40,081 nucleotides of DNA from Chlorobiaceae bacterium (GCA_013334975.1 JAAXWL010000013.1:1-40081), one strand, 5' to 3'. Positions 1,829 to 32,987 are shown, counted from the stretch's first letter. A program made the numbers and translations. Notes: generated by a model from the sequence alone, not told the origin.

Positions 1829-1853
1829 GCCACCATGCGAGGAAAAGAATCCC

Positions 1854-2510: not shown

Positions 2511-2595
2511 CGTTATATCCCCAACACCACTCATCGTTCGTTGTTGAATCCGCTGCCCTTCCTGATAACATCGGCGTTCGGCCCTTGGTTTTAAC

Positions 2596-2624: not shown

Positions 2625-2668
2625 CTGGCATACTCTGTATTCATCTTCGACAAAATCAGCAGGAACTA

Positions 2669-4036: not shown

Positions 4037-4169
4037 GATTATGCTCCGTGAAATTATTAATCGTTTGATACTCTGGTCTGGTTTCGGAATCGTGCATCCG
4101 ACAATCATACCCGACATCGACCGCGTTTATTACCATTACCTGGTTTGTGCAACATCATCCGCCGCATAA

Positions 4170-9876: not shown

Positions 9877-10350
9877 TCAGTTATCCGACTTGCAGAACCG
9901 GTCCAGATGCCGGAAAAAGGGACGAGCCTGCTCTTCCTCGGCCTGACGCTTCAGCGGTGACTCATCGATCACCTCTGTCGGCTCGATGACCCACACACCG
10001 CTCAGGTCGACCTCTCCCAGTATTGCACGACTTTCGATGTAGTACTTCTGGAACAGGGTTCCGGTAATGTGAACCTTGACAGGTCGTCCCTTGATCTGGT
10101 AATTTTCACCACGTCTTCCCTGGACAGCTATCGAAACCTGGCGTTCAAACCAGAGGGCGCCGACAAGGTTATGATTTGTTCGGGATGACTCCAGATGCTC
10201 CAGGTAGAGGATATTGCCCTCTTCGGAGATCCGGAAAAGACGACCGGTAACAACATTTGGCGTGCTCTCTCCGTCGATGGTGGCCAATGCCTTGAAAGCC
10301 GTTGCATCGTTGAAAAGTGAAATCAGTTCTTCAGATAATTGAATGTTCAT
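9877..10350 (-). CDS. FMN-binding split-barrel protein (pyridoxamine 5'-phosphate oxidase family)
   Basis: A 157-residue protein related to the one at 5070-5483: LSEELISLFNDATAFKALATI, NVVTGRLFRI, the SSRTNHNLVGALW stretch and YQIKGRPVKVHITG match the same fold. The C-terminus is longer and charged. It is the first gene of the exporter cluster and its stop codon lies 2 bp before the ABC exporter start. Its start is within 10 bp of repeat copy R1, so the cluster's promoter would have to lie in or beyond that repeat. Function beyond flavin or cofactor binding is not predictable. Confidence 0.8.
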   Translation of the reverse strand: MNIQLSEELISLFNDATAFKALATIDGESTPNVVTGRLFRISEEGNILYLEHLESSRTNHNLVGALWFERQVSIAVQGRRGENYQIKGRPVKVHITGTLFQKYYIESRAILGEVDLSGVWVIEPTEVIDESPLKRQAEEEQARPFFRHLDRFCKSDN

Positions 10351-10355
10351 CTCAG

Positions 10356-10589
10356 TAGTGTTACGTCAATGGTAAATAGTCGTTTTTCCTTTTATCATCG
10401 AAATCGGTATCCAAATCGGTATCGAGTTCCACTTGAAGGAGGATAAATAAAACACGCCGTTTCTTGTTGTTATTACCATAACCATCAGATAATTAAACTG
10501 ATAAAGCCAGAATCCGGTTTTCTGTTTTCACACAAATAATCGATTTCGATACCGATACCGATTTCGATTCGGATAAGTAGATGACACTT
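10356..10589. repeat. MITE-like interspersed repeat, copy R1
   Basis: A 234-bp noncoding element. It begins TAGTGTTACGTCA and ends with GATGACACTT, so its ends are short imperfect inverted repeats (AGTGTY...). Inside are subterminal arms built from CGATACCGAT-type units: ATCGGTATCCAAATCGGTAT near 10405-10425 and CGATTTCGATACCGATACCG near 10541-10560. Copy R4 at 34372-34644 matches it over its full length in the opposite orientation. No open reading frame is present. R1 lies immediately upstream of the split-barrel/exporter cluster. Confidence 0.75.
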
Positions 10590-10644
10590 TAACATACGCC
10601 ATTTTAAGCTTGATATATCAGTAGTACCTTTGTCTGGTTTGAAA

Positions 10645-10800
10645 TAGTATCACGTCAACGGTATAAGAACGTTTGCCTGCCTGATATCAAAATCGGGTTC
10701 CATATCGGTATTGGTATTGATCTTCACGGAACGCTGTGACAGAAAAATTTTCACCTGGTAATCAGGACAATTAAAAGAATCGATTTCGATGTTGTCAGAC
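10645..10800. repeat. Degenerate interspersed repeat, copy R2
   Basis: Starts TAGTATCACGTCAACGG, matching the left end of R1, followed by the ATCAAAATCGG and ATATCGGTATTGG segment and, near 10780, AATCGATTTCGAT. The right end has decayed. It has the same orientation as R1 and lies 55 bp after it. No gene is present between here and 11163. Confidence 0.6.
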
Positions 10801-11162
10801 GCCTCTACGACATAGGGCAGACAGATCACCACCTCATCTGCGGTAAACGAAACATGTCCGGTCCCGGTGCGGCTGACGATTCGACAACATTAACCCGTGT
10901 CTCGCGTTATGAACCGGGTTATGACATCAGCCGCCCGAAGCCGGGGCAAGCAACGAAGGAGCAATCGATCACAAGGAGTAGAATGACCGACATCCCTCTG
11001 CCTGCGCGGAACAATAAACGATACAAATGCTCAGAAGAGCTTACATCTCCTATAAAAATACCCGATACAGGGTAATGAACACCGGCTCAGGAGGAGCCAT
11101 CGCCCAACGAGTGCGGGGACTCAACAGGCCGCGCTACTCAAAGAATTCGCCGTAAAAAACCG
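10801..11162. other. Intergenic remainder, nothing recognised
   Basis: This stretch lies downstream of the arylsulfotransferase-family gene. A 73-codon plus-strand frame (10854-11075) has no recognisable motif and is not accepted. No clear terminator for the minus-strand operon was found. Confidence 0.4.
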
Positions 11163-12605
11163 TCATCTGGATATCACGCAATAATCCGTATCCCTTGAAT
11201 AACCACGAACCCCGTCCACAGGCGTCTCCCGTTGACGACCTGCAGGTGCGGCACCCGGCACACGAAACGTCGACCTGTCGAGCGGCGGGATCTCTCGCTC
11301 GACAGGTTTTTCAAGCTGGGGAACCCATCCATACGGTGCACGGTATGCGCGATAGACCATGTTCATGCCCCCTCCCGGCCCGCGGCCCGCACTTAAATGG
11401 TACGGACTGATATACTCCCAGACAATCCTGTGATCTTCTGTTACTTCGAATACACGCCCATCCGAACCCTCAGTAATCAGGGTGTTGCCGTTCACAAAGC
11501 GTTGCGCGCTGCTGATGAACGGACTGTAAAAACGTGCCGCGTCAAGAGGAACGTCGAAACCTGCTTCGAATGGCGTATACTGCCAGACGATTTCGAGCGT
11601 CACCGGGTCGATTTCAAGAACCCGCGAATAGTCGCGCAAGGCGTTCATCCGACCGTTCGGAGCTCCCGGGCTCGCCTCACCGTAACCTGCCCAGCCGCCG
11701 TTATCGAAAAGAAGCAGGTTGCCTTCGCCGGGCAGACCTCGAGGAATCAGATGGGCATGGTGCTGGCCGATGATCCATCCAAGCCGCTTCTCCCGCTCGT
11801 TGCCGTCATATCGCGGGCCCAGTTTCCAGACAATCTTACCACTCTTCTTTTCGATGATGGCGATGAGATTTGCCTCACGCGCATCCCAGATCAGGTTGTC
11901 GGGATGGAACCTGGCATCACCAGCATCGAAATGGCGGTTTGGGCCAAGCGCAGAAAGAGAGTTGATATGCAGCCAGTCACCAAGTCCACCCTCGATTGGC
12001 CGGAGATTAGGATCCGAAAAAATGATGCGTCGTGCCTCTTCGTCGAATTCAAGCTCTTCGAAATGCTCGTTGGCGCGCCACTCCCAGACGATAGTGCCAG
12101 ACCAGTCAACTTCGATGATCTTGTCATCGATCAGTCTCTTTTCCGAGATAGCCGTGTTCAGAACCTCTTCATGCACCAGAATCAGGGTATTGCCCTCACC
12201 GGTTTTTGGATCGAGACCAGGCGCATAATAGCCTACCGGATTGCCTTCACGCTGGAAATCGTGATGCTGCCGGGCAACCCAGCGGGGTTCTTCACCGGGG
12301 TCAGAAACAAACTCGGTACGTTCAAAACGCCAGACAATAGTACCCTCCCAGTCGACCTGAACAAGATCGAGCTGGTCCTGGAAGCCGTACCTGGGGTTGC
12401 GTATACCGGTACTGCCGAACACCTGGCCACCCGGAAGAAGTTTGTTAGGAAAACCGTGCAGTCCCTTCCACAACTGGACTTCACGACCGTTCATATCGAT
12501 GAGCAATGCCCCCGTTTCGGCAGCCTGGAGAATGGTATAGCCGCCCCAGGCCTCTTCGGGGTTGTAAATGGTAACGCCTGTCGGATAAATGGTCGGGTGA
12601 CCCAT
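11163..12605 (-). CDS. Arylsulfotransferase-family beta-propeller protein, no signal peptide
   Basis: A 480-residue protein with repeated propeller-blade motifs of the form DW-GTIVW (residues 84-94 and 166-176) and related blades KSGKIVW, TLEIVWQY and DHRIVWEY. ASST-type active-site motifs are present: DWLHINS (210-216), QHHAHLIP (281-288) and NGNTLITEGS. Classical ASST enzymes transfer sulfate between phenols in the periplasm through a histidine. This one starts MGHPTIYPTG with no signal peptide, so it is predicted cytosolic. It has a good AAGGAGAT ribosome-binding site and lies 70 bp after a radical SAM gene as the last gene of the nitrogenase-like operon. The real substrate may be a sulfated or sulfonated compound, but this is inference. 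Confidence 0.82.
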   Translation of the reverse strand: MGHPTIYPTGVTIYNPEEAWGGYTILQAAETGALLIDMNGREVQLWKGLHGFPNKLLPGGQVFGSTGIRNPRYGFQDQLDLVQVDWEGTIVWRFERTEFVSDPGEEPRWVARQHHDFQREGNPVGYYAPGLDPKTGEGNTLILVHEEVLNTAISEKRLIDDKIIEVDWSGTIVWEWRANEHFEELEFDEEARRIIFSDPNLRPIEGGLGDWLHINSLSALGPNRHFDAGDARFHPDNLIWDAREANLIAIIEKKSGKIVWKLGPRYDGNEREKRLGWIIGQHHAHLIPRGLPGEGNLLLFDNGGWAGYGEASPGAPNGRMNALRDYSRVLEIDPVTLEIVWQYTPFEAGFDVPLDAARFYSPFISSAQRFVNGNTLITEGSDGRVFEVTEDHRIVWEYISPYHLSAGRGPGGGMNMVYRAYRAPYGWVPQLEKPVEREIPPLDRSTFRVPGAAPAGRQRETPVDGVRGYSRDTDYCVISR

Positions 12606-12675
12606 GATCGATCTCCTTGTGTTGTCTTGTGTTGTACTGTAATCGCCGTGTTCACTGACAGTTCGTCAATCCGCC

Positions 12676-13926
12676 TCAGCGGATTCTTGACAGATCGGTG
12701 TCGGGATGGTTTCCGCATCGTCGATAATCGTCGAAATCGGTTGTAATACCATAGGCCGCCTTGATCCGCTCCAGACCCCTGGTCAGGCGGACATAATAGT
12801 CGAGAGACGGGCTCTTCTGATCCCGGAATGGCGAGTTCGGACGTGGCACCCAGACGACAAAAAATGCCGGAACCCCATGCCTGGCAAGGGATTCGGCTTC
12901 CGCAAGTGTCGCTTCAAGCGCCTCCTCTTCGGTTGTGAATCCGTATGGCGTTGCAAGCTCAACACCACCAACGATTCCGCTCGAAACGTTTCCCCTGCCA
13001 AAAATATCGACGGCGCGTATGACTCGCTGCTTCCAGACCTCGTAACCACCGACCGCTTCGGCCTTGCCGGGGCATATCCATCTGAACTTTTCAGGGTCGA
13101 GCACTTCGAGATCGCAGGTGTAACTCATCAGGCCGGTAGTATCGTACAAACGCCTTAACTGTTTCTCGCTGTATGCCGAAGCAACAAGCTGACTGGGAAA
13201 TTTCCTGCTCCCGAAGTGCTCTCCAATCGCCTGGAGCAGTTCGATGTACAGATCGACCTCCCTGTCGAACACCTCCTGGCCTTTAAGGATCGAGCCGCCG
13301 GTAATACAGAAGGTGCAGAATCGCCCCTCTTCCCTGAGTGCCTCTCGCACGACTTCGGAGACATCCTCCATCCTGAGCTTCGGGCGCACAGGACGTCCTT
13401 TTGTTTTGTTGTTGTTATGGATCTCGCAATACAGGCACGAGTTCTTTCCAAAGTGGCACACGGTGGACAGGAGAATGCTCAGCCGTTGAGGCCGGGCGCT
13501 GATGACATCCTTCATCGGAATGCCGGAAGAGGTCACCAGATCGTAGTAGCGTGGTTTTTCCCAGAATTCCACGAACTCGATGACTTCATCCCCATCGATC
13601 AGGGCCGGACGACCGTCAACCAGATCGACCAGGTAAGGCTCCTTGTCAGTGGAAACCGATTCGACGACAATCGAGGTACCATCCCTCAACAGGAGTGATT
13701 CCGGCACATTCGTATCGGTATAAATTCCATCGCGCGAACACCAGATCGCGCTTCTCAACTGGTGTACGGCAGGATCGAGTCCGTCGAGGGCGCGCCGTGT
13801 GTAATGGACTCCACGACGCTGAACATCGATCTTGAGAATAATCAACCGGGGAACATCCGGATATTTTGACACAACATCCGACAACGTCGATTCCCTTTCG
13901 TGGACACGTTTTAATGCGACATTCAT
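12676..13926 (-). CDS. Radical SAM protein, BioB/ThiH-like, divergent paralogue
   Basis: A 416-residue protein with an N-terminal domain of about 150 residues followed by a radical SAM barrel. The cluster cysteines are Cys157, Cys164 and Cys167 (C-x6-C-x2-C), not the common C-x3-C-x2-C. Downstream motifs are TGGSILKG, the RWICPGKAEAVGGYE segment and SSGIVGGVEL. These align with the three tandem paralogues at 18.8-22.6 kb, though the protein is clearly more distant. It lies 49 bp after the NifK-like gene and 70 bp before the sulfotransferase-family gene. It could mature or modify a cofactor or substrate of the nitrogenase-like enzyme; nothing in the sequence says which. Confidence 0.85.
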   Translation of the reverse strand: MNVALKRVHERESTLSDVVSKYPDVPRLIILKIDVQRRGVHYTRRALDGLDPAVHQLRSAIWCSRDGIYTDTNVPESLLLRDGTSIVVESVSTDKEPYLVDLVDGRPALIDGDEVIEFVEFWEKPRYYDLVTSSGIPMKDVISARPQRLSILLSTVCHFGKNSCLYCEIHNNNKTKGRPVRPKLRMEDVSEVVREALREEGRFCTFCITGGSILKGQEVFDREVDLYIELLQAIGEHFGSRKFPSQLVASAYSEKQLRRLYDTTGLMSYTCDLEVLDPEKFRWICPGKAEAVGGYEVWKQRVIRAVDIFGRGNVSSGIVGGVELATPYGFTTEEEALEATLAEAESLARHGVPAFFVVWVPRPNSPFRDQKSPSLDYYVRLTRGLERIKAAYGITTDFDDYRRCGNHPDTDLSRIR

Positions 13927-13975: not shown

Positions 13976-15283
13976 CTACGTAAACGATCGGGAAAGCATC
14001 GCGCTGCCAATATCTTCGAGCAGGGCGGTTGCCCCCCTGTAGCCGGCATACCCTCGATGGATCACCACCCGATCGGCGAGCGGGAAGGAAACCGGCAGGA
14101 ACGGCACACCAAGCGAGTCGGCTACCTTCGCCTCCAGTGCGCTGCCCAGCACCACCTCCGCACCACCTGAAAACACGATATCCTGGATTTCTGCATGGTC
14201 TTCGCTGAAAAAAACCTCTGCTTTCCAGCCATCAACCAGGCCGGAAAGTCGCTCCCGGATCGCACCCATCGACTCTTCGGGCGGATTGTCGGTAATAATG
14301 AGTGTCCGTGGCAGCAATCCGAGCGTTCTGCCAAGAAATTCACCTATCCCGACAACCTGCGCACTCTCCGCCACCAGGGCAAACTCGCGCTGAAATCCTG
14401 CACGGTAATAGATATCGGCAAAACCGGCAAGCTGTCGACCCAGTCGCGTCTCTTCTGCAGCAACAAATCGCTCTGTCCGATCGGTATCGAGCCCAAGCCG
14501 ATCCGAAACTGCATTGAGCAAGCGGCCGGCAGCCGATCCAACCGGCAATCCATCGAGCAACACCGATGGCGTGCCGTAGCGCTCTTCAAGCAACCGGGCG
14601 GGAGCCTCACCCCAGACAGATACCGAGATATTGAGCACAGCCTCCGGAACGTATCGCCAGTTGTCAGGCCCCTGTCCGTAGCCAATCAACAGGTTCGGAC
14701 TGAGCCCGATTCCCTCCAGCAGTCGTCCGATCTCTTCGAGGTTGCCAGCCCAGAAGGGATCCTGACGCGGGATAATGCCCCAAATGTTCACCAGGTTGTC
14801 TGTCGGCTTCTGCCGACCACCCGACAAAGCAGGCAACTGTTCGATCAGCGCCCTCACGGCCAGTTCGTAGCCCTGATGCACCGCACCGCGAAACCCTGGC
14901 GTATTGGCATAGACAATCGGAAAGCGCTGTTCAAGGCCCTCCTTAGCCATGGCAGGAATATCGTCCCCGACCATCTCCGTCGAGCATCCGGAAACAATGA
15001 AATAGAGTTCTCCTTCGACAACCTTGATCGTATTCTTAAGCTGCTCGCGAAGTCGGGAACTGCCGCCGAACACGATGTGCTTCTCGCCGATATTGCTGCT
15101 GGAGACCGGCGGCCCGCCAGACGAATCAGTTCCGGGTCCAAGACGGTTGACGCCGAGATAATGCTGCATGCCGCAACCCGTATTACTATGGATGACGGGC
15201 ACCGCACCCTCGATTGCCTCGATCAGTTGAAGTGCGCCATGCAGGGCACAGGAATTTCGCGATCCATCGATATGATAAGTCAT
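13976..15283 (-). CDS. Nitrogenase-like component 1, NifK-like subunit with three P-cluster-position cysteines
   Basis: A 435-residue member of the nitrogenase component 1 superfamily. It has exactly three cysteines, all at P-cluster positions: Cys12 (NSCALHG), Cys37 (NTGCGMQH) and Cys100 (SGCSTEMVGDD). The 25-residue spacing of the first two equals that of NifK, BchN and BchY. Other family marks are GEKHIVFGG, TPGFRG and a C-terminal SFPLADR...GYRGA stretch like the end of NifK. It starts 2 bp after the NifD-like gene with an AGAGGTG ribosome-binding site, so it is coupled. It should form an alpha2beta2-type catalytic component that receives electrons from the NifH-like protein. Shorter than NifK (over 500 residues), lacking its long N-terminus. 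Confidence 0.9.
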   Translation of the reverse strand: MTYHIDGSRNSCALHGALQLIEAIEGAVPVIHSNTGCGMQHYLGVNRLGPGTDSSGGPPVSSSNIGEKHIVFGGSSRLREQLKNTIKVVEGELYFIVSGCSTEMVGDDIPAMAKEGLEQRFPIVYANTPGFRGAVHQGYELAVRALIEQLPALSGGRQKPTDNLVNIWGIIPRQDPFWAGNLEEIGRLLEGIGLSPNLLIGYGQGPDNWRYVPEAVLNISVSVWGEAPARLLEERYGTPSVLLDGLPVGSAAGRLLNAVSDRLGLDTDRTERFVAAEETRLGRQLAGFADIYYRAGFQREFALVAESAQVVGIGEFLGRTLGLLPRTLIITDNPPEESMGAIRERLSGLVDGWKAEVFFSEDHAEIQDIVFSGGAEVVLGSALEAKVADSLGVPFLPVSFPLADRVVIHRGYAGYRGATALLEDIGSAMLSRSFT

Positions 15284-15285
15284 GA

Positions 15286-16698
15286 TTACTTCACCTCTTT
15301 TTTAATATGCCAGTTGGGACTGCGCTGAAGCCACGACTCTTTGTAGGGCAGGGTAACCGACGCAAGCCGCTCTCCGAACGAACGATTCTTCAGTGCCACT
15401 GAAATACGCTGGACAAGATTGAGCGTACCGTTGTAAGCAAGTATCCGGGTCTGTTCAAGAGAAACGACCGGGAACCCGAGCCGGGCAACCTGACCCGTAT
15501 GGGCGCCGTCGCCGATATACAGGTCGGGAGCGAATCGTCTGAGGATATTCAGCTCCTCGAAAGGCTGGCCGTCGGCAATATGAACCTGAAGTAATGGATG
15601 GCGGCTTGCAAGCAGCTTGAGCTGCGCTATGTGCAGCACGTCGAGATGAGGTACGGTGATGCCGGCAATCTCTCCGCCAGATTCCTCAACCAGCTTCGCT
15701 ACCTGGAGGGCTGTCGATGGTGAAAGCGACAGATAGACCCGAATACCTGAAAGAGTGAAATCTCCAAGTTCACGGCGAACCCTTACGGACTCCTGACGAT
15801 GCAACTCCGCAGCGGCTTGTCCGACACCTGCGGCTTTACCGACGTCGAGGAGCCACCGACCGGTAGCTTCAAGCCCCAATGGACGTTCGATCTCCAGGTA
15901 CGGCACGTCGTACTCTTCGCGAAGCACGGTTCCGAGATAATTATCTGCATCATGGTTGAGCGAAATCGAAAATCGTGCTTCGGTTGCTTCAACGAAAGTC
16001 CAGATCGAAGCATTGTCAGGCAGAACGTTAAGTTCGAGACCAAGCGCTGTCAGCAGCCGCGTGACCTCCTGGAGATCTGAACGATGTTCAGCGACTGAAA
16101 ACAGGTTGACCCGCCCGTTCCGACCTCCTGATTCTCGTCCTCCTGCCAACTGTCTGAAAATTGAATGCAGGGCTATGTCATATCCGGTCAGTGCGTTGCG
16201 GGATGCGAACCCGGTCACAAATACCGGAATGACCGGCAATTCGAGTTCCTCCCGGAGTTCATCAACCACCGCCTGGATATCGTCGTTGTTGATCGCCGCC
16301 ACCGGACTCGAAAGGATGAAAATCACTTCGGGATCATAGGTACGGTAAGCTGTTGTCACCGCCTTGCGGAGCTTCCGGTCGGCCCCCATGATGGTATCTT
16401 TCTGGTCGAGATTAGTCACGATCCAGTTTCCCCGACCCTGGGCTACCTTGTGGTACAGAGCCGCCACCGCGCAACCACGTGGAGAGTGAATGACCGTCGC
16501 ACTCTTTTCTATGCGACAGAGGATGTTGAGCGCATGCAGAAGGTCGTCATTCGAACTCTGGGAAAAGGTCCTGATCCGTTGGACGACCTCCTGGCCGGCA
16601 AATTCCCTGACAGCAGAATCGGCAGGCCCGATCCATGCGTTCAGCGTATCGATTCGTTTTTCGCGAATACGTGGCGCTCTCTTTTTCAAAAGGATCAT
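15286..16698 (-). CDS. Nitrogenase-like component 1, NifD-like subunit without FeMo-cofactor ligands
   Basis: A 470-residue member of the nitrogenase component 1 superfamily with only two cysteines. Cys76 in HSPRGCAVAA matches NifD Cys88; Cys61 (NILCRIEKS) is 15 residues earlier and does not fit NifD Cys62. NifD Cys154 is replaced by serine (ILSSPVAAINNDDI). The FeMo-cofactor cysteine region reads SLNHDADNY, with no cysteine, and the cofactor histidine region reads VVSLEQTRILAYNG, with no histidine. Nitrogenase, VnfD/AnfD and methylthio-alkane reductase chemistry at such a cofactor is therefore unlikely. The protein is 27 bp after nifH-like and 2 bp before the NifK-like gene. The C-terminus ends in a basic tail (WHIKKEVK). 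By hand alignment only, so residue matches need confirmation. Confidence 0.88.
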   Translation of the reverse strand: MILLKKRAPRIREKRIDTLNAWIGPADSAVREFAGQEVVQRIRTFSQSSNDDLLHALNILCRIEKSATVIHSPRGCAVAALYHKVAQGRGNWIVTNLDQKDTIMGADRKLRKAVTTAYRTYDPEVIFILSSPVAAINNDDIQAVVDELREELELPVIPVFVTGFASRNALTGYDIALHSIFRQLAGGRESGGRNGRVNLFSVAEHRSDLQEVTRLLTALGLELNVLPDNASIWTFVEATEARFSISLNHDADNYLGTVLREEYDVPYLEIERPLGLEATGRWLLDVGKAAGVGQAAAELHRQESVRVRRELGDFTLSGIRVYLSLSPSTALQVAKLVEESGGEIAGITVPHLDVLHIAQLKLLASRHPLLQVHIADGQPFEELNILRRFAPDLYIGDGAHTGQVARLGFPVVSLEQTRILAYNGTLNLVQRISVALKNRSFGERLASVTLPYKESWLQRSPNWHIKKEVK

Positions 16699-16725: not shown

Positions 16726-17601
16726 TTAAATTGACTCCATCTCTTGCACGACACCGGTCTCGACCTCGAAAATCCTGTCACCCCATTTCCTGGCCCAGCG
16801 CTTCAGCTCGGGAACGTTAAGCGGTTTTGGTATTACCGAATCCTGGTTTTCATCGATAAAGCGCGCAAGGTTGCGATAGACCTCCGCCTGCCCGGATTCC
16901 GGAAGCGCCTCGATGACGGTCTTGCCATAGAGTTCGCTTTGCGCCACCGTGATGGACCTCGGCACGTATCCGATAACCGGTACGGCACTCTCGGCTGCAA
17001 AGTCGTCGATCAGTGGCTGTGAATAGGAGTGCTGGATACTGTTGGCGATCACCCCCCCAAGCCGGGCGCCACCCGACGGAGCGTACTTGTTGATCGCCTT
17101 GAAAAGGTTGTTGGCCGCAAAAATAGCCATAAAATCCGATGAGGTCACCACGAACGCCCGTTCGGCGATGCCGTCACGGATGGGAACGGCGAAACCGCCG
17201 CAAACCACGTCTCCAAGCACGTCATAGAGCACAAAATCGGGCTTGTACTCCTCGAAAACCTTCAGATCCTGAAGCAGTTCGACGGCGGCATTGATACCCC
17301 GGCCCGCACAGCCGACCCCCGGGACGGGACCACCTGCCTCGATGCAGAGAACACCGCCGAAACCAACCGCCGAGATATCTTCGAGCCTCACCTTGCTTTG
17401 CTCTCTTAGGGTATCGAGCACGGTCGGCAAATCGTTGCCTCCGCGCAGAATCGTCGTGGAATCACTCTTCGGATCGCACCCGATCTGGATAACCCGGTAT
17501 CCTGCCTCGGCAAGAGCCGCACTGATATTGGAGGTTGTGGTGGATTTGCCGATACCTCCCTTTCCATAAATGGCGATATGCCTTCCTCTCTTTTCACTCA
17601 T
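16726..17601 (-). CDS. NifH-like ATP-dependent reductase (iron protein homologue)
   Basis: About 291 residues from ATG 17601-17599, preceded by AAGGAG at a good distance; an in-frame ATG at 17673 would add 24 residues not seen in the family. The Walker A GKGGIGKS is at residues 13-20. The two cysteines that would hold the inter-subunit [4Fe-4S] cluster are Cys98 (VGCAGRG) and Cys134 (VVCGGFA). Arg101 corresponds to the arginine that is ADP-ribosylated in nitrogenase reductase. It should form a homodimer that passes electrons to the component encoded by the next two genes, driven by ATP. It is not BchL or BchX by sequence feel, and no nif, anf or vnf accessory genes are nearby. Confidence 0.93.
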
Positions 17602-17970
17602 GACAGTAATCTCCTTGTTCTCTTGTGTCTTGTATTTTCGCTGCGGAACTGTCCACATGCATATTTTCACCATTTCTTAAGAAGCTCATGTACCATTGGC
17701 GTACTATGATCTCCTCTTTTCGATACCGATACCGATCTGGACAATTCACCTGTTCGCTTTTTTTCTTCCATCGGTATCCAAATCGGTATCGGATTTCAGT
17801 TGGAATCTCGATTGAGTTCTATACTGACCTCAATTTCTGTTGCCGCTGACTACCTCACTCATCGAGTTTCTGATTCAGTGAGAAGAACGCCGTTCTTTGC
17901 CTGTTCTCTCTCTGACTCGATGCAACGAGAAAGGGCCAAAACCGCAATCGCCGTCCTGTTCCCCGCTGTT
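17602..17970. promoter_or_regulatory. Gap upstream of the nitrogenase-like operon: likely promoter region with a repeat
   Basis: This 369-bp gap separates the SDR gene from the NifH-like gene and probably holds the promoter of the H-D-K-rSAM-sulfotransferase operon. It contains a perfect palindrome TTCTTAAGAA at 17674-17683, the imperfect dyad GTACCATTGGCGTAC near 17690-17704, and repeat R3. No sigma-54 type GG/GC element was recognised, so NifA-type control is not supported. Confidence 0.45.
17719..17793. repeat. Short palindromic derivative of the interspersed repeat, copy R3
   Basis: Two CGATACCGAT-type arms face each other: CGATACCGATACCGATCTGG (17721-17740) and ATCGGTATCCAAATCGGTAT (17770-17789), separated by about 30 bp. 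The sequence matches the subterminal arms of R1 and R4 with the middle lost. It lies upstream of the NifH-like gene and could fold into a hairpin in its leader if transcription starts beyond it. Confidence 0.6.
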
Positions 17971-18765
17971 TCAATGAGCCTGTGCTGGGGGCTTCAGGGG
18001 AGTACCGCCAATATTGAAACCTCCGCCGGAAACGTCCAGCAGGGCTCCGGTTATGAACGAAGCTTCATCGGACAACAGCCAGACGATCGGCCTGGCAATC
18101 TCGTCCACATTAGCTGGTCGTCCAAGCGGTATCGATGAAGCGATCTCGGCATAACGATCCGGATCGTTTGTATACTCAGCCGTCATCTCGGTGATAGTGA
18201 AACCGGGACGCACGGCTACGGCCCGAATGCCTTCGGCGGCGACCTCCCTGGCCAGCCCGACCGTAAAGACATCGACGGCTGCCTTTGACGAACCATAGAG
18301 GCTGACACCTGGTCGTCCGCCAATGGTTGCAGCCATCGACGAAACATTGACGATCACCCCTCCCTTACCGCCATGTGCTGTGGACATGCGCCTGACCGCT
18401 TCGCGCGTTGACAGGATCAGGCCTGTCACGTTGGTCTGGAAAAGACGGGTCAACAGAGTGGCATCTGCCTCATCAACCCTCGTTCTTCCGCTGAGTACAC
18501 CCGCGCTGTTCACCAAAGCCGTAAGAACTCCAAGACGCTCCGTGACCTCTTCAAACATCCTTTCGATATCTCCTGGGCAGGCAATATCGGCCTGAACCGC
18601 AATCACCCTCACCCCCGTTTTCTTCAACTCTTCGACGAGCAGTTCCGCCTCCCGCTCCCTGCTCCGGTAATTGATGGCAATATCGTATCCCTTTCGGGCG
18701 GCCAGTCTTGCCGTCGCCGCGCCGATACCGCTTGCACCCCCTGTTATAAGCAACACTTCTGACAT
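17971..18765 (-). CDS. Short-chain dehydrogenase/reductase
   Basis: A 264-residue classical SDR with the NAD(P)-binding TGGASGIG (residues 8-15), the NSAG motif (NSAGVLSG), catalytic serine in NVSSMAA and the YGSSK active-site motif. The C-terminal substrate region resembles 3-oxoacyl-ACP reductase/glucose-dehydrogenase types, but no substrate can be assigned. An arginine in NYRSREREAE after beta-2 suggests NADPH preference. It begins 14 bp after the stop of a radical SAM gene with a GGGAGA ribosome-binding site and is the last gene of the upstream transport/rSAM cluster. Confidence 0.9.
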   Translation of the reverse strand: MSEVLLITGGASGIGAATARLAARKGYDIAINYRSREREAELLVEELKKTGVRVIAVQADIACPGDIERMFEEVTERLGVLTALVNSAGVLSGRTRVDEADATLLTRLFQTNVTGLILSTREAVRRMSTAHGGKGGVIVNVSSMAATIGGRPGVSLYGSSKAAVDVFTVGLAREVAAEGIRAVAVRPGFTITEMTAEYTNDPDRYAEIASSIPLGRPANVDEIARPIVWLLSDEASFITGALLDVSGGGFNIGGTPLKPPAQAH

Positions 18766-18779: not shown

Positions 18780-19991
18780 TCAGACAGCCGCAAGCGGCTG
18801 GACTTGTCTGTTGAACACCGGAAGCGTCTCCTCTTCGATCCGGTAAATATCGTTTATCGGAGACTCGGGCGTAGGTGAGCAGTCGTAAAGCTCGTCCCAG
18901 GTGTATCCGTTACGGCGAAAAATCCCGGCAACTTTGCGGAACAGGTCGATATGCCACTCCGGTTCGGGGGCTCGGTGACCTTCGAAGGCGGAGCCAGGAT
19001 TCGGATTCCAGCTTGTAACCAGGCAAAGGACCCCTTTGGAGGCGAGGTATTCTACGCCTTCCAGCGTAGACTCCTTTGGCTCGATGCCTGCCACAATATT
19101 CGAGCGCACCTTGCCCCTGCCAAACACCGCCACCTCGTGCTCAAGCGTCTTGACCCAATGCCCCCAGCCGCCGGACTCGATCGCCTTGCCGGGGCAGATT
19201 GCCCTGAAAAGGTGCTTGTCCCATATCTCGATGTTGGTCGCTATCGTGCGGAATCCTGCCTCCTTGTACTTTTCGATAACGCTCAGGTCGTGCGGTGCTC
19301 CGATGACCGCCGTGCCGTTGAAATCATCCAGTCCTGTATGCTCCCGAATCGAATCGGCCACATCCAGATAGTACTCCACTTCGCGCCGTTCAGCCACGAA
19401 TCCACCGGTGAGTGTAAAGTGACGGGCTCCGTCAAGCCGGTACGCCGCCGCAACCGTTTCTCCGATCTGATGCGGGTATTTCCATCCAATACCTTCCGCT
19501 TCACCATAGGCCTGCTTTGTGGCGTTGATATTGCAGAATTTGCAGTCGCGCCCCTTCTCCCTGAATGCACATTCGTTGCTGTATGCAGTCAGAATCGCCC
19601 CGTTGCGTGTGTAGACCGCAAGCGTGTTCATCGGCGTGCCATCTGAGGTTTTTTCCGCATAATATTCAGGCCGGTCAAGGAACTCGATCGGAAAGATCAC
19701 TACCCCCTTGTATGTCAGATAATAGACATCGTTCTCAAGGATGAAGGAATACTGTGACCGCCGATCCCACTTGATTGGAAAAGTCAGGCCGTGCGGCGAC
19801 AGAAAGCCGGCGGGGAAATGGATACCGACATGGTGTTCATGGTCATATTCGAAAACACAGTGGACCTCTTCCTGGTATTTTCCGGTGATATCGAGGTTCC
19901 TGAAAATGCGTGGATCGAAGCTTATCCCCTCCACACTGGTCGCAATCTTCAGTTCCAGTTCCCGATACAGTTTATCCTTGATGGTGCTCAT
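18780..19991 (-). CDS. Radical SAM protein, tandem paralogue 3, intact
   Basis: A 403-residue protein. Residues 1-120 form an N-terminal domain of unknown function, and the radical SAM cysteines are Cys141, Cys150 and Cys153 (C-x8-C-x2-C in SNECAFREKGRDCKFC). The barrel carries TLTGGFVAERREVEYYLD, RAICPGKAIESGG and SNIVAGIEP, a BioB/HmdB/ThiH-like layout. It has an AGAGGAG ribosome-binding site. Together with the copies at 20058-21271 and 21381-22592 it forms a head-to-tail tandem array, and the short SDR gene follows. The reaction is unknown; the family logic predicts a 5'-deoxyadenosyl radical at the first step. Confidence 0.88.
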   Translation of the reverse strand: MSTIKDKLYRELELKIATSVEGISFDPRIFRNLDITGKYQEEVHCVFEYDHEHHVGIHFPAGFLSPHGLTFPIKWDRRSQYSFILENDVYYLTYKGVVIFPIEFLDRPEYYAEKTSDGTPMNTLAVYTRNGAILTAYSNECAFREKGRDCKFCNINATKQAYGEAEGIGWKYPHQIGETVAAAYRLDGARHFTLTGGFVAERREVEYYLDVADSIREHTGLDDFNGTAVIGAPHDLSVIEKYKEAGFRTIATNIEIWDKHLFRAICPGKAIESGGWGHWVKTLEHEVAVFGRGKVRSNIVAGIEPKESTLEGVEYLASKGVLCLVTSWNPNPGSAFEGHRAPEPEWHIDLFRKVAGIFRRNGYTWDELYDCSPTPESPINDIYRIEEETLPVFNRQVQPLAAV

Positions 19992-20057
19992 GCTGTTGAC
20001 TCCTCTGTTGTTTTTTATGCTTTTCTCTTTTTTTTAACCTTGGTTCTCCCTGCGTTC

Positions 20058-21271
20058 TCAGACCGCCTGCGCTTCCGATGCCTGCTCATGAAATACCGGC
20101 AGGCTCTCGTCCTCGATCCTGTAGATGTCATGGATGGACGATACCGGAATCGGAGCGCAATCATAGAGCTGATCGTAGGTGTAGCCGTTTCGTCTCAGGA
20201 TAGCGACGACCTTTTTGAACAGGTCCACGTGCCACACTGGTTCCGGTGTACGATGCCCTTCGAGGGCGGAGCCGGGATTCGCGTTCCAACTCGTCACGCC
20301 GGAGAGCACCCCTCCTTTCGAAGTGAGGTACTCGATGCCCTCCAGCGTGGACACTTTCGGTTCAAGGCCAGCCACGATATTCGAACGGACCCGCCCCTTG
20401 CCGAACACTTCGACTTCATGGTCGAGAGTCTTTATCCAGTGGTCCCAACCACCTGACTCGAGTTCTTTGCCAGGGCAGATCGCTCTGAAGATGTTTTTGT
20501 CCCATATCTCGATGTTGGTCGCTATCGTGCGAAACCCTGCCTCCTTGTACTTCTCGATGATGCTCAGGTCAAGCGGAGCACCGATCACTGCGGTGCCGTT
20601 GAAGTCGTCAAGTCCGGTATGCTCACGGATGGCATCGGCCACCACGAGGTAATACTCCACCTCGCGCCGTTCTGCCACGTACCCACCGGTAAGCGTGAAG
20701 TGGCGTGCCCCGTCGAGTTTATAGGCGGCAGCGACCGTCTCCCCGATATGGTGCGGGTATTTCCAGCCTATGCCCTCCGCCTCGCTGTAAGCGTTTCTGG
20801 TCGCATTGAGGTTGCAAAACTTGCAGTCACGACCTTTTTCATTGAGGGCACACTCGTTGCTGTAAGCGGTCTGGATAGCACCGTCCTGGTTATAGATAGC
20901 AATGGTGTTCATCGGCGTTCCGTCGAAGGTTCTCTCTCGGTAGTACTTCGGGCGCTCAGCGAACTCGACCATAAAGAGGAGCTCCCCCTTGAGCGCGAGC
21001 TAGATAACGCCATTGTCGGAGATGAATGAATAAGGGGAGCGACGGTTCCACTTCGTCTGCACGGTAAGTCCCAACGGAGTCTGATACCATGCTGGAAAAT
21101 GGATTCCGACATGGTGTTCATGGTCGTTTTCGAAAATACTGTGGACCTCTTCCTGGAATTTGCCACCAATGTCGAAATGGCTGAAAATGTGGGATCGAAA
21201 TCAACTCCCTCCACATCGGCAGCGATTTTCAATTCGAGTTCCCGGTACAGTTTTTCCTTGAGTATGCTCAT
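20058..21271 (-). pseudogene. Radical SAM protein, tandem paralogue 2, broken by a frameshift and a stop codon
   Basis: The frame starts MSILKEKLYRELELKI like its neighbours, with a good GGGAGGGA ribosome-binding site. After VDFDP, near 21200, one base is missing and the homology moves to another frame (IFSHFDIGGKFQEEV...). That frame then meets TAG at 21002-21000, where the paralogues have a tyrosine or phenylalanine. Beyond it the frame is intact from 20972 to the end and retains the cysteine motif SNECALNEKGRDCKFC. A 304-residue C-terminal product could start at ATG 20972 but would lack the N-terminal domain. Two independent lesions make a sequencing error less likely but do not exclude it. 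Confidence 0.85.
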
Positions 21272-21305
21272 TCCCTCCCCTTTTCAGTTTTGTTACCTTG
21301 CCGAC

Positions 21306-21335
21306 GGGATGCAGGCTCATTCAGCCCTGCGTCCC
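21306..21335 (-). other. Intercistronic hairpin between radical SAM paralogues 1 and 2
   Basis: GGGATGCAGGC (21306-21316) and GCCCTGCGTCCC (21324-21335) pair with one mismatch and one extra base. There is no U-tract, so it is more likely an RNA-stabilising or processing hairpin than a terminator. Confidence 0.4.
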
Positions 21336-21380
21336 GCATATTCTTTTTCTGTTGTCTGTTTCTTCAATCGAGCGATCTGC

Positions 21381-22592
21381 TTACACAGCTTCGGCCGTTG
21401 CGAAATGCTCCTGGAAAACCGGTAGCGTCTCGTCCTCGATCCTGTAGATGTCATGAATCGGAGTGATCGGTGCCGCATAGCAGTCATAGAGCTCGTCGAA
21501 GGTATAGCCGTGCCTTCTGAAGATTCCTGCGACCTTCCTGTACAGATCGATATGCCACTCCGGTTCCGGAGAGCGGTGGCCTTCAAAAGCCGATCCGGGA
21601 TTCGGGTTCCAACTGGTCGCAAAACAGACAACACCCTTCGATGCAAGATATTCGATCCCCTCAAGCGTAGACTCTTTGGGCTCGATGCCTGCGACGATGT
21701 TCGAACGCACACGACCCCGGCCAAACACCTGGACTTCATATTCAAGCGCTTTCACCCAATGATCGTATCCGCCAGACTCGATATCTTTGCCGGGGCAGAT
21801 AGCCCGGAAAAGGTTCTTGTCCCATATCTCGATGTTGGTAGCCACCGTCCGGAAACCGGCCTCCTTGTATTTATCGATGATACTCAGATCGAGCGGGGCA
21901 CCAATCACGGCAGTGCCGTTGAAATCGTCAAGCCCTGTATGCTCCCGGATAGCGTCGGCCACATCGAGGTAGTACTCGACCTCACGCCTCTCCGCCACAA
22001 AACCGCCAGTCAGCGTGAAGTGGCGCGCACCGTCTTCCCTGTAGGCGGCAGCAACTGCTTCACCGATCTGGTGCGGGTATTTCCAGCCAATGCCTTCGAT
22101 CTCTCCATAGGTGTGTTTGGTCGCATTGATATTGCAGAACCTGCAGTCGCGTCCTTTCTCCCTGAATGCGCACTCATTGCTGTATGCGGTAAGAATCGCT
22201 CCACCCTGGGTATAGAGGGCAAGGGTGTTCAATCGAACCCCATCTGAGGTTTTGAGTCCGTAATAGGTCGGACGTTCAACGAATTCAACCGGAAAAATAA
22301 TCGTACCCTTATGTGCCAGAAAGAACACTCCATCCTCAACAACGAATGAGTATGGCGACCTGCGATCCCACTTCAGGGCATAGGTCAACCCATGGGGGGA
22401 GCGAAAAAAGGCGGGGAAAAGAAACCCGACATGGGACTCATGGTCGCCTTCAAAAAGGCAGTGAATCTCCTCCTGGTATTTGCCCCCCAGGTCGAGATGC
22501 CTGAATATTTGCGGATCGAAATTGATACCTTCAACACCGGTGATGATTTTCAGTTCAAGTTCCCGGTACAGTTTTTCCTTGAGTGTACTCAT
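21381..22592 (-). CDS. Radical SAM protein, tandem paralogue 1, intact
   Basis: A 403-residue protein closely similar to the gene at 18780-19991 along its whole length, with the same cysteine positions (141, 150, 153; C-x8-C-x2-C). TLTGGFVAERREVEYYLD, RAICPGKDIESGGYD and SNIVAGIEP are shared. It is the first of the three tandem copies in transcription order and follows the ABC ATPase gene by 82 bp. Duplication within an operon suggests either heteromeric assembly, dosage, or divergence in substrate. The N-terminal domain has two histidine-containing stretches (GDHESHVGF) kept in the paralogues. Confidence 0.88.
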   Translation of the reverse strand: MSTLKEKLYRELELKIITGVEGINFDPQIFRHLDLGGKYQEEIHCLFEGDHESHVGFLFPAFFRSPHGLTYALKWDRRSPYSFVVEDGVFFLAHKGTIIFPVEFVERPTYYGLKTSDGVRLNTLALYTQGGAILTAYSNECAFREKGRDCRFCNINATKHTYGEIEGIGWKYPHQIGEAVAAAYREDGARHFTLTGGFVAERREVEYYLDVADAIREHTGLDDFNGTAVIGAPLDLSIIDKYKEAGFRTVATNIEIWDKNLFRAICPGKDIESGGYDHWVKALEYEVQVFGRGRVRSNIVAGIEPKESTLEGIEYLASKGVVCFATSWNPNPGSAFEGHRSPEPEWHIDLYRKVAGIFRRHGYTFDELYDCYAAPITPIHDIYRIEDETLPVFQEHFATAEAV

Positions 22593-22674: not shown

Positions 22675-23451
22675 TCAGATAGCGAATGAAAAATGGTGCT
22701 CCGTATGCAGCATGAACTCTTCAAGTACCGACTCCTTCATGTCTGCAAAATCGTGACCTGCCCTGTCACGCGGTCTTGATAGAGGAACGCTGATAACCTT
22801 CTGGATTCTGCCCGGCTTGGCTGACATGACCACGATTTTGTCAGAGAGATACAAGGCCTCCTCCACATCGTGTGTCACCATGATCATCGTGATATTCTCC
22901 TTCTTCCATATCCGTTCGAGCTCACGATGCATGTACATCCTCGTCAGAGCATCAAGTGCGCCGAGAGGTTCATCGAGCAAAAGAATTTTCGGCTGGTTGA
23001 CCAGCGCCCTGGCGATGGCTGCACGCTGTGACATGCCTCCCGATAGCTGATACGGGTAATTTTTCCCGAACCCGTTCAGACCCACGAGTTCTATGTGGCT
23101 GTCAACGATCTCCTTTTTCTCTTTTTCGGTTTTTCCGATAATCCCGAGAGCGATGTTCTTTTCAACTGTCAGCCAGGGAAAAAGCCGATGGTCCTGGAAA
23201 ACTATTCCACGATCAAGGCTGGGACCATTGAGCCGTTTGCCGTCAAGCAGGATATCTCCCTCATATTCCGCTTCGAGGCCAACGATATGGCGGAGCAGCG
23301 TAGTCTTGCCGCAACCGCTCAAACCGATAATCGAAACAAACTCCCCTGGGTTTATGGACAGATTGATGTCTTCAAGGACATGGATATCCTTGTCTTTGCC
23401 GGAATAGGTCTTCCTGACATTCCTGATCTCAAGTGCTCCTCTGTTGTTCAT
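22675..23451 (-). CDS. ABC transporter ATPase, sulfonate/taurine/nitrate type (SsuB/TauB-like)
   Basis: A 258-residue ATPase with Walker A GLSGCGKTT (43-51), Q-loop in VFQDHRLFPWLTV, signature LSGGMSQR (136-143), Walker B ILLLDEP (156-162) and H-loop VTHDVEEA. The Q-loop context and signature are typical of the SsuB/TauB/NrtCD group. It energises import by the two permeases encoded just upstream. Only 3 bp separate it from the preceding permease stop. Substrate class (aliphatic sulfonate, taurine, nitrate, pyrimidine) cannot be decided from the ATPase. Confidence 0.9.
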   Translation of the reverse strand: MNNRGALEIRNVRKTYSGKDKDIHVLEDINLSINPGEFVSIIGLSGCGKTTLLRHIVGLEAEYEGDILLDGKRLNGPSLDRGIVFQDHRLFPWLTVEKNIALGIIGKTEKEKKEIVDSHIELVGLNGFGKNYPYQLSGGMSQRAAIARALVNQPKILLLDEPLGALDALTRMYMHRELERIWKKENITMIMVTHDVEEALYLSDKIVVMSAKPGRIQKVISVPLSRPRDRAGHDFADMKESVLEEFMLHTEHHFSFAI

Positions 23452-23454
23452 GAT

Positions 23455-24231
23455 TTATCTCGTTAGCCTCCATTTGGAGAATATTATTTCAAGCTTCTGC
23501 ATCAGGTAGTTCATCGTGAAACCCACCAGGGCGATCGTAACGATGCAGACAATGACCAGATCGATATTCGAAGTCTCCCGGCAGGCCCACATCATGTCCC
23601 CGATGCCGCCTCCTGACGAAATGAATATTTCGGCGGCAACAACCAGCAGCCACGATACGCTCAGCCCTATTCTCAGTCCGGTGAGCGTGGATGGAAAACT
23701 GGATGGCAGAATGATTTTCAGGAATCTTCTGATTCTGCCGAACCGGAAGACATTGCCCACCTCGAAATACTCCTTCCTGATGCTCCTGATACCCTCGACG
23801 GTATTGAGTGCAACAGGGTAACAGGCCCCGATAGCGATGAACAAAACCCGAGATGGCTCACCGATGCTGACAAGCACCAGCAAAGGAGCGAATGCGGGAA
23901 TCGGTACCTGACGAACCGCGTTGAACACCGGGCTTATCATTTTTTCCGCGATCCTCGACATGCCGATCATGATACCGATCACATAACCGACTGAAGCGCC
24001 GATCAGAAATCCTTTTGAAACCCGGATTATGCTGATCAGAAGGTTCTCGGCAAGCAGCCCCTCTTTCCAGACTTTCAGGAACCCATTGAGGACATCCGAC
24101 GGTGACGGAAAAGTAAGTGCATCAATGATACGGGCTTTCGAAAGGAAATACCATATCAGGAGCAGCATCACAGGAAGGATGCTTCCCTCCACAAACCTCT
24201 TGAGCATTGCTTTGTCAATTATTGCATTCAT
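23455..24231 (-). CDS. ABC permease, SsuC/TauC type, second subunit
   Basis: A 258-residue permease with about six membrane segments and the cytoplasmic coupling loop EVGNVFRFGRIRRFLKIILPSSFPSTLTGLRIGLSVSW (partial motif: EVG...LPSSFPSTLTGLRIG). It is a paralogue of the permease upstream. Together they would form a heterodimeric channel, whereas SsuC and TauC normally act as homodimers encoded by one gene. It is 26 bp from the upstream permease and almost abuts the ATPase. Confidence 0.9.
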   Translation of the reverse strand: MNAIIDKAMLKRFVEGSILPVMLLLIWYFLSKARIIDALTFPSPSDVLNGFLKVWKEGLLAENLLISIIRVSKGFLIGASVGYVIGIMIGMSRIAEKMISPVFNAVRQVPIPAFAPLLVLVSIGEPSRVLFIAIGACYPVALNTVEGIRSIRKEYFEVGNVFRFGRIRRFLKIILPSSFPSTLTGLRIGLSVSWLLVVAAEIFISSGGGIGDMMWACRETSNIDLVIVCIVTIALVGFTMNYLMQKLEIIFSKWRLTR

Positions 24232-24257
24232 GAGCTATCTTGCTTTCTTTATATATT

Positions 24258-25040
24258 TTATACGTTCTTGCGATGCCATTTCATCAACGATGACTCCAAC
24301 ACTTCGAGCCCTCTGAACATGACATACCCAACTGTTCCGACGGTGATGATGCCAACATAGACGATATCCATCTGGAACAACTGGCGACCCCAGACGATCA
24401 TAAAACCGACACCTTCACTGGCAGCTATGAGCTCGGCTCCGATGACACTCATCCATGAGAAGCCAAGCGACAACTTGATCCCCGTGAAAATCGAAGGAAG
24501 CGCCGCAGGAAAAAGCACCTTCCTCATCAGCTTTCCGTTGTTGAACTCGAATGCACGCGCAACCTCGAGATAGACAATGGGCACACCGTGTATGCCTTCG
24601 AAGGTGTTCAGAAGCATCGGAAAGAACGCAGCCAGAGAGACAAACACGATCTTGAACTGCTCGTCGATACCAAACAGGATCATCAGAAAAGGCACCCAGC
24701 CGAAAAGCGGCACCTGGTTGAACGAAATGAGCAATGGCGTCAATGCCCGCTGCAGGCGTGGGACAAGCGCCATGAGAACGCCCAGGAGGAATCCCGCTCC
24801 CGCACCGATTGCAAAACCACTCAATACCCGCACGACACTGCATCTGAGATGGCCGAAAAGCTCTCCGGTAGACAACATGTCGAGCAGCAGAGCGTAGATC
24901 CTGTGCGGAGGAACGATGATCTGGGATGGAAGAATTTCTGTGGTTCCAACCACTTCCATGGTAATCAGCAGTAACAAGGGAACAAGAAGTCCCAGAAAAA
25001 CCGTTGAAACTTTATTTCTGTCGATTGATAGCATGATCAA
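24258..25040 (-). CDS. ABC permease, SsuC/TauC type, first subunit
   Basis: A 260-residue permease with about six membrane helices and the binding-protein-dependent transport loop (EVARAFEFNNGK..LFPAALPSIFTGIKLSLG). Its start overlaps the end of the MFS gene by 4 bp (25037-25040, ATGA), which shows tight translational coupling between an ABC importer and an MFS carrier. Function as in the second subunit. Confidence 0.9.
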   Translation of the reverse strand: MIMLSIDRNKVSTVFLGLLVPLLLLITMEVVGTTEILPSQIIVPPHRIYALLLDMLSTGELFGHLRCSVVRVLSGFAIGAGAGFLLGVLMALVPRLQRALTPLLISFNQVPLFGWVPFLMILFGIDEQFKIVFVSLAAFFPMLLNTFEGIHGVPIVYLEVARAFEFNNGKLMRKVLFPAALPSIFTGIKLSLGFSWMSVIGAELIAASEGVGFMIVWGRQLFQMDIVYVGIITVGTVGYVMFRGLEVLESSLMKWHRKNV

Positions 25041-26266: not shown

Positions 26267-26445
26267 AGTTCCTTACTCCCCAACCAGTCAACATGGCCGA
26301 AGCAGCATTCCCCAACAACACCATGCATCTTCATAAACGCTGTGAATGCCGGACTGGATTTACCCGCCCCGTCCCGCAAACCGGGAGGTCTGACCTGTTC
26401 CGGGTAATTGAGCAGTTCCGAAAGTTTTTCTGAAAAGCCTGACAT
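26263..26445 (-). CDS. 60-residue small protein, translationally coupled to the MFS gene
   Basis: The frame begins with ATG 26445-26443, which has a strong AGAGGA ribosome-binding site 7 bp upstream, and its stop overlaps the MFS start (ATGA). The peptide is soluble and mildly charged, with a central FTAFMKMHG stretch and a C-terminal CCFGH motif (ECCFGHVDW). I do not recognise a family. Two adjacent cysteines and a histidine could bind a metal or cluster. Coupling and ribosome-binding site are the evidence that it is real. Confidence 0.6.
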   Translation of the reverse strand: MSGFSEKLSELLNYPEQVRPPGLRDGAGKSSPAFTAFMKMHGVVGECCFGHVDWLGSKEL

Positions 26446-26479
26446 GAGTATCCTCTTGATCCGTTAAGTGTTCAATACC

Positions 26480-26514
26480 TGCGGGAACCCGTCAACCACA
26501 TCCGGATTCCCGCA
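26480..26514 (-). other. Intercistronic hairpin after the binding-protein gene
   Basis: TGCGGGAA (26480-26487) and TTCCCGCA (26507-26514) are perfect 8-bp arms, with further CCG/CGG pairing inside. It lies 18 bp after the binding-protein stop codon and before the small ORF. No U-tract follows, so partial termination or 3'-end protection, giving more binding protein than permease, is likely. Confidence 0.55.
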
Positions 26515-26531
26515 TCAAGTCATCATTCACA

Positions 26532-32985: not shown

Positions 32986-32987
32986 AC

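Follow-up and report, generated by a model that had tools for sequence, protein, structure and literature searches.

How does a nitrogenase-like enzyme work with only four cluster cysteines between its two catalytic subunits, and what does it reduce? The question is raised by a stretch of 40,081 nucleotides (JAAXWL010000013.1, referred to as the window), a contig of a 2.79-Mb Chlorobiaceae genome (GCA_013334975.1; 99.69% complete) whose closest named relatives are Chlorobiaceae metagenome-assembled genomes (MAGs). Three genes for an enzyme of this kind, here called H, D, and K, lie side by side on its minus strand. We consider it highly probable that D and K are IsrD and IsrK and make up the catalytic part of an isethionate-type sulfonate reductase used for anaerobic sulfur assimilation, in which IsrH would feed a [4Fe-4S] cluster bound by three cysteines of K and one of D, and the radical S-adenosylmethionine (SAM) protein IsrB would assist in cleaving the C-S bond. 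The enzyme and its 3+1 cysteine pattern were already published in 2024 (PMC11423573); its presence in Chlorobia and Geobacter, which the main text of that paper does not discuss, is new, and among the papers searched, none connects Chlorobi with nitrogenase-like enzymes and sulfonates. The three genes are as follows:

13976-15283, minus strand: isrK-like gene (NflK/IsrK), 435 aa, catalytic subunit of the K lineage with three cluster cysteines (Pfam Oxidored_nitro, 223 bits)
15286-16698, minus strand: isrD-like gene (NflD/IsrD), 470 aa, catalytic subunit of the D lineage with one cluster cysteine (Oxidored_nitro, 216 bits)
16726-17673, minus strand: isrH-like gene for a NifH-type ATP-dependent reductase (Fer4_NifH, 324 bits; nifH model 373 bits, under its cut-off of 394); its product has two ligand cysteines, 122 and 158, both conserved

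We found that the two catalytic subunits descend from different nitrogenase lineages. Among solved structures, K was closest to MarK of the methylthio-alkane reductase of R. rubrum (Mar; 9d9u_C, 258.8 bits, as against 52.8 bits for MarD), and D was closest to MarD (9fmg_A, 148 bits, as against 52 bits for MarK), so that, judged by these scores, the three-cysteine subunit is clearly of the K lineage and the one-cysteine subunit of the D lineage. Single-chain structure models (mean predicted local distance difference test score, pLDDT, of 74-78) returned the same best matches, 9fmg_A for D and 9d9u_C for K; as D and K were folded as separate chains and confidence is low at K residues 35-68 and 101-118, stretches that contain or flank the cluster loops, ligand geometry is unreadable in these models. 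In phylogenetic trees, the window proteins fell inside an IsrD clade and an IsrK clade (support of 100 and 98, respectively, in the Shimodaira-Hasegawa-like approximate likelihood ratio test, SH-aLRT), which adjoin Mar/Nfl. These trees and all alignments cover sampled relatives, without the IsrDK sequences of Rhodobacter capsulatus.

By direct count, K contains exactly three cysteines (12, 37, and 100) and D exactly two (61 and 76). We placed these in an alignment of 75 proteins that included MarDK, NifDKEN, alternative nitrogenases, and BchNBYZ, and that was anchored on Mar, whose P-cluster is bound by MarK Cys32, 56, and 121 together with MarD Cys66, 91, and 158, and whose [Fe8S9C] cluster is bound by MarD Cys270 and His429 (PMC12552129); the MarD and MarK sequences in the PDB carry these residues at the published numbers. 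K Cys12, Cys37, and Cys100 aligned with MarK Cys32, Cys56, and Cys121, and D Cys76 aligned with MarD Cys91. Conservation was counted in 25 sets from 23 of the 98 genomes of the class Chlorobia and, overall, in the best 80 loci from a wider scan of bacterial and archaeal genomes that yielded 121 relatives; these loci gave 80 D and 82 K sequences, with at least one MarK among the latter. The codons concerned are:

15248-15250, minus strand: K Cys12, P-cluster position 1 (25/25 in Chlorobia, 82/82 overall)
15173-15175, minus strand: K Cys37, P-cluster position 2 (25/25 in Chlorobia, 81/82 overall)
14984-14986, minus strand: K Cys100, P-cluster position 3 (25/25 in Chlorobia, 81/82 overall)
16471-16473, minus strand: D Cys76, P-cluster position 2, proposed fourth ligand of the [4Fe-4S] cluster (24/24 in Chlorobia, 79/80 overall)
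16546-16548, minus strand: D Asp51, P-cluster position 1, column of MarD Cys66 (Asp in 70/80)
16303-16305, minus strand: D Pro132, P-cluster position 3, column of MarD Cys158 (Pro in 75/80, Ser in 5/80)
16516-16518, minus strand: D Cys61, non-ligand (Cys in the window only; Ser, Ala, Gly, or Asn in relatives)

These data bear out much of an initial annotation of the locus, which had proposed that all three K cysteines sit at P-cluster positions, that D keeps only Cys76 at such a position with Cys61 as an extra cysteine, and that the four form a 3+1 set. It had also named a serine at the third D position, where the alignment instead places Pro132, with Ser131 as its neighbor. The possibility, raised by the same annotation against its own proposal, that Cys61 acts as a further, fifth ligand is ruled out by conservation, as a cysteine occurs there in 1 of 80 D proteins, that of the window. 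The analogy with BchB Asp36 might suggest that Asp51 is an indispensable ligand, but this is unsupported, with Ser, Asn, or Gly in its place in 9 of 80.

The ligands of a nitrogenase-type cofactor are absent as well, as the initial annotation had stated: Asn248 of the window D occupies the column of MarD Cys270, and Asp397-Gly398 that of the MarD Arg428-His429 pair. The sampled D proteins of Mar and other Group IV enzymes carry cysteines at P-cluster positions 1-3 and in the cofactor column, with the Arg-His pair in 10 of 13, unlike the IsrD proteins, which retain a cysteine at P-cluster position 2 only. A Mar enzyme, with a P-cluster and an [Fe8S9C] cluster for the cleavage of thioether C-S bonds, would fit the observation that MarDK is the closest solved relative in sequence and fold and that its chemistry, too, is C-S cleavage, but two of the three D-side P-cluster cysteines, Cys270, and Arg428-His429 are missing, the Mar sequences form a separate clade, and the window genome has no NifB-type gene. 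We consider this explanation very improbable, and the ligands (four of the six P-cluster cysteines and none for the cofactor) rule out Mar membership. Elsewhere, in the genome that also holds locus L084, L177 carries a further Group IV D/K type (1-2998 and 10649-13556) that branches separately from the Mar group in both the D tree and the K tree; it has all six P-cluster cysteines and the cofactor cysteine but lacks the Arg-His pair of Mar.

A different comparison is offered by the bacteriochlorophyll enzymes of the same organism, dark-operative protochlorophyllide oxidoreductase (DPOR, BchNB) and chlorophyllide a oxidoreductase (COR, BchYZ). In the same alignment, its own BchN and BchY read Cys-Cys-Cys at the three P-cluster positions, BchB reads Thr-Asp-Cys, and BchZ, read from two contig fragments, Ser-Cys-Ala. 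The column of D Cys76 is that of the BchB Asp and the BchZ Cys, which supply the fourth cluster ligand in DPOR and COR (DPOR ligands as published, PMC12518044). The equal number and type of ligands, 3+1 at equivalent positions, could suggest a further tetrapyrrole reductase, but the organism already has BchNB and BchYZ, phylogeny and gene context speak for sulfur assimilation, and the three-cysteine subunit comes from the other lineage, which together make this reading extremely improbable. The earlier proposal that the distribution is opposite to that in DPOR/COR thus stands, since the three cysteines sit in the K lineage here and in BchN and BchY there. Overall, a single shared [4Fe-4S] cluster, the lack of a FeMo-type cluster, and a cysteine distribution opposite to that of DPOR/COR appear well supported by the comparison, with one [4Fe-4S] cluster expected per DK half.

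Conservation of the four cysteines extends across many phyla, in loci from Chlorobiaceae, Geobacter, Clostridium, Ruminiclostridium, Paenibacillus, Lachnospiraceae, Treponema, Rhodopila, Rhodopseudomonas, Anaeromyxobacter, and others. In these sequences it is far beyond what chance would produce, and no further cysteine of the window proteins is conserved among the 80 D and 82 K relatives. The only D without Cys76 is that of Pectinatus haikarae, and the K of the same locus is the only K without Cys37 and Cys100; independent losses would fall in one genome with a chance near 1 in 80. Because D Cys76 and K Cys37/Cys100 were lost together, this case points to a single shared cluster, and we regard it as suggestive, coming as it does from one species. 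The Pectinatus pair (L117, D at 10001-11398 with K downstream) is full-length, with Thr in D and Leu and Val in K replacing the three cluster cysteines, and is possibly a cluster-less homologue; a search of the order of Pectinatus for more such homologues returned none at the similarity level of the Pectinatus protein.

What would such an enzyme reduce? Morimoto, Uesaka, Fujita, and Yamamoto (mSphere 2024, PMC11423573) described and named isethionate reductase, IsrBHDK (nflBHDK), and reported that R. capsulatus requires nflBHDK and ssuCAB to use isethionate as the only sulfur source during anaerobic phototrophic growth, that isrBHDK and ssuCAB of R. capsulatus confer growth on isethionate sulfur upon R. 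sphaeroides, and that isethionate lyase substitutes for nflDK. The evidence for sulfite release from isethionate is genetic and comes from R. capsulatus only (PMC11423573). Its IsrDK is a redox-active Fe-S protein whose subunits co-purify and whose 410-nm band is bleached by dithionite; IsrD carries one conserved cysteine, Cys74, with Pro or Ser at the third D position and no FeMo-co ligands, IsrK carries three, Cys12, Cys37, and Cys99, and the comparison with the cluster of DPOR NB was already drawn there (PMC11423573). The window proteins share the 3+1 cysteines, the absence of the FeMo-co Cys and His, a position in their own clade beside MarD, a linked isrB-type gene, and a sulfonate-type ATP-binding cassette (ABC) transporter. 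In the window, variant radical SAM genes lie upstream of H and SsuABC-type transporter genes are present, and the loci of Rhodopseudomonas and Rhodopila show the R. capsulatus order B-H-D-K with a radical SAM protein 49-53% identical to that of the window.

On this basis, we propose that IsrH, a NifH-type [4Fe-4S] ATPase, would use ATP to transfer electrons one at a time to a single [4Fe-4S] cluster, which IsrK Cys12, Cys37, and Cys100 and IsrD Cys76 would bind where the two subunits meet. From this cluster, electrons would reach a sulfonate bound in the cavity that houses [Fe8S9C] in Mar and that here would hold no FeMo-type cluster. There, IsrB would act as the radical SAM partner in the reductive cleavage of the sulfonate C-S bond, and the sulfite released would be reduced for cysteine synthesis. 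Both the substrate in the window organism and the role of IsrB we infer from the comparison. Several points weigh against the assignment. For the window organism, it draws on genes and comparison, and Isr membership was judged by clade position, by synteny and gene order, and by the cysteine pattern in print. For R. capsulatus itself, the published evidence on the cluster is the dithionite-bleached 410-nm band (PMC11423573), and the convergence of the four cysteines at one cluster would follow from homology. Furthermore, the chlorobial loci are richer in radical SAM genes and in other genes than that of R. capsulatus, and hence the substrate may not be isethionate.

The genomes themselves speak to the absence of a FeMo-type cofactor. 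No NifB, NifDK, or NifEN was found in the window genome, where the nitrogenase fold is represented by BchNB, BchY, BchZ, and the D and K of the locus. That nif genes are hidden by incomplete assembly can be rejected, given its completeness and given that the sole extra PF00148 fragment, on contig C59, reads as the BchZ N-terminus. Six of 31 other carriers likewise lacked NifB or gave weak partial matches only, and in three of these six, a single D and a single K are the only PF00148 proteins; several of the NifB-less genomes are MAGs, and that of Lachnospiraceae NC2004 is not labelled as one. With NifB lacking, the enzyme in these organisms must do without any cluster made by NifB, in agreement with the absence of the cofactor ligands.

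While the claim of the initial annotation that no FeMo-type cofactor is present thus gained support from both ligands and NifB, its description of the cluster as a simple electron relay claims more than the data show: R. capsulatus also requires IsrB, and an IsrB-made cofactor or a radical step would be compatible with this. A new kind of cofactor, built by IsrB and not of NifB type, could occupy the FeMo-co cavity left vacant in IsrD, with other residues as its ligands, and the 3+1 cluster would then serve as a relay only. The requirement of isrB for growth on isethionate in R. capsulatus (PMC11423573) is in line with such a cofactor, as are the strict company that IsrB-type genes keep with IsrHDK and the near-invariant IsrD residues without an assigned role, for example Asn137-Asn138-Asp139-Asp140, Gln378, Glu381, Trp463, and Lys466. 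Yet IsrD offers no conserved Cys or His ligand, the cofactor column varies among N, D, C, S, and K, the columns of MarD Arg428 and His429 vary too, and IsrB is unrelated to NifB and MarB beyond the radical SAM motif (PMC11423573), so that we consider an IsrB-built cofactor unlikely, though the most credible of the alternatives.

We found IsrB to be multiplied in Chlorobia. IsrHDK is distributed patchily in the class (23 of 98 genomes), and IsrB-type proteins scoring at least 333 bits with the variant radical SAM model occurred in 23/23 Isr-positive and 0/75 Isr-negative genomes (Fisher p ~7e-23, at a cut-off set after the scores had been seen); counting any match above the model's own cut-off, the numbers were 23/23 and 13/75. 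All 25 other carriers tested also had an IsrB-type gene. A single chlorobial genome can hold up to six or seven IsrB copies above 440 bits, together with one or two IsrHDK sets, and a single radiation (support 100) takes in nearly all of the chlorobial copies and includes several paralogue groups common to at least three genomes; the motif C-x8-C-x2-C is kept in 80 of 81 radical SAM proteins. Tandem arrays of IsrB-type paralogues were seen in the window (18780-22592) and at loci L028-L036.

The excess of IsrB-type paralogues over IsrHDK sets in Chlorobia, together with the lack of a cofactor site, might suggest that IsrHDK only carries electrons, has no substrate itself, and feeds radical SAM enzymes that cleave C-S bonds. 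In R. capsulatus, however, a single IsrB accompanies IsrHDK, and radical SAM enzymes normally obtain low-potential electrons from ferredoxin or flavodoxin, which leaves this explanation a rather poor chance, slightly below that of an IsrB-built cofactor. For IsrDK as the sulfonate-reducing component, the multiplication of IsrB, which is new for Chlorobia, is most simply read, as a hypothesis, as different IsrB partners for one core. We tentatively extend this to the possibility, on balance doubtful at present, that one cluster-simplified IsrHDK core serves several IsrB partners, each for a different sulfonate or other organosulfur compound, with the radical SAM protein setting specificity; if true, this would be a modular nitrogenase-like desulfonation system. 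In any case, the multiple chlorobial IsrB partners make the role of IsrB directly testable.

The remaining genes around HDK are:

17971-18765, minus strand: SDR-family dehydrogenase, often adjoining isrH in Chlorobia (family search and locus comparison)
18780-19991, minus strand: isrB-type variant radical SAM gene, copy 1 (NF045502, 462 bits; C-x8-C-x2-C)
20058-21271, minus strand: isrB-type copy 2 with a broken frame, open reading frames 20058-20972 and 20909-21271 (the match across the break contains TGA and TAG)
21381-22592, minus strand: isrB-type variant radical SAM gene, copy 3 (NF045502, 463 bits; C-x8-C-x2-C)
12676-13926, minus strand: variant radical SAM gene of divergent sequence, immediately downstream of isrK (NF045502, 191.5 bits; motif C-x6-C-x2-C)
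22675-27569, minus strand: SsuB, two SsuC-type permeases, a major facilitator superfamily (MFS) transporter, and an SsuA-family sulfonate-binding protein (ABC_tran; SsuA_fam)
11163-12605, minus strand: arylsulfotransferase-family (ASST) protein, recurring in isr loci of Chlorobia and clostridia (Pfam Arylsulfotrans)

Copy 2, the middle of the three tandem isrB-type genes, is interrupted by a frameshift, which leaves two overlapping reading frames, and is either a pseudogene or an assembly error; the C-x8-C-x2-C motif was not found in the divergent radical SAM protein. The gene group at 22675-27569 is predicted to serve sulfonate uptake, its SsuA-family protein matching SsuA_fam at E=1e-38 (133 bits, under the cut-off of 163.5), and Ssu-type transporter genes lie near HDK at most Isr loci compared. 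Copies of the ASST protein that are 65-67% identical to it occur in the isr loci of four clostridial genomes (L085, L087, L090, and L093), hinting at the transfer of a larger organosulfur gene set. On the plus strand, not far from the isr locus, 30107-34268 encodes two BcrAD/BadFG-type ATPases, of which one carries an HGD-D/double-cubane reductase domain as a fusion, as well as a second HGD-D protein, a set that amounts to a second ATP-driven low-potential reductase accompanying the sulfonate genes; genes of these types also adjoin HDK in several Chlorobia (L029, L031, L032, and L034). Near the isr locus, at 2-4117 on the minus strand, genes for a serine acetyltransferase, a cysteine synthase, and an O-acetylhomoserine-sulfhydrylase-like protein, assigned by reading their translations, are consistent with sulfur assimilation.

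Isethionate reductase, published but little known, is thereby placed in green sulfur bacteria, with strong comparative evidence on its metal site. The system most similar to that of the window is IsrBHDK of R. capsulatus, which shares the B-H-D-K set with an Ssu-type transporter, the three cysteines in IsrK and one in IsrD, Pro or Ser at the third D position, the lack of FeMo-co ligands, the place beside MarD in the tree, and the radical SAM partner. It differs in needing one isrB, whereas the window has three IsrB-type genes (one broken) and a divergent one, and in its companions, as the window adds ASST-like, small flavin-type, and double-cubane reductase-like genes; at the first D position, Arg was given by PMC11423573, whereas our alignment places Asp51 there. 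Mar (9fmg, 9d9u; PMC12552129) is the nearest in solved fold and sequence, likewise a Group IV nitrogenase-like enzyme that cleaves C-S bonds for sulfur assimilation, yet its P-cluster is bound by six cysteines, and its [Fe8S9C] cluster, in whose assembly MarB presumably takes part, by Cys270 and His429; of these ligands, the window enzyme lacks two P-cluster cysteines and those for the cofactor. With Mo-nitrogenase NifHDK, the window enzyme shares the fold, the NifH-type reductase, and, presumably, the heterotetramer architecture, and it differs in lacking the FeMo-co ligands, two of six P-cluster ligands, and NifB/NifEN in the genome. BchYZ and BchNB resemble it in having one [4Fe-4S] cluster, three ligands from one subunit and the fourth from position 2 of the other, and no FeMo-type cofactor, and they differ in their tetrapyrrole substrates and in the identity of the three-cysteine subunit, which is BchY or BchN there and of the K lineage here. 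Hence, close to the Mar branch, a relative of nitrogenase seems to have abandoned the large clusters and reverted to one [4Fe-4S] cluster, most of whose ligands come from the opposite subunit to that used by the bacteriochlorophyll enzymes.

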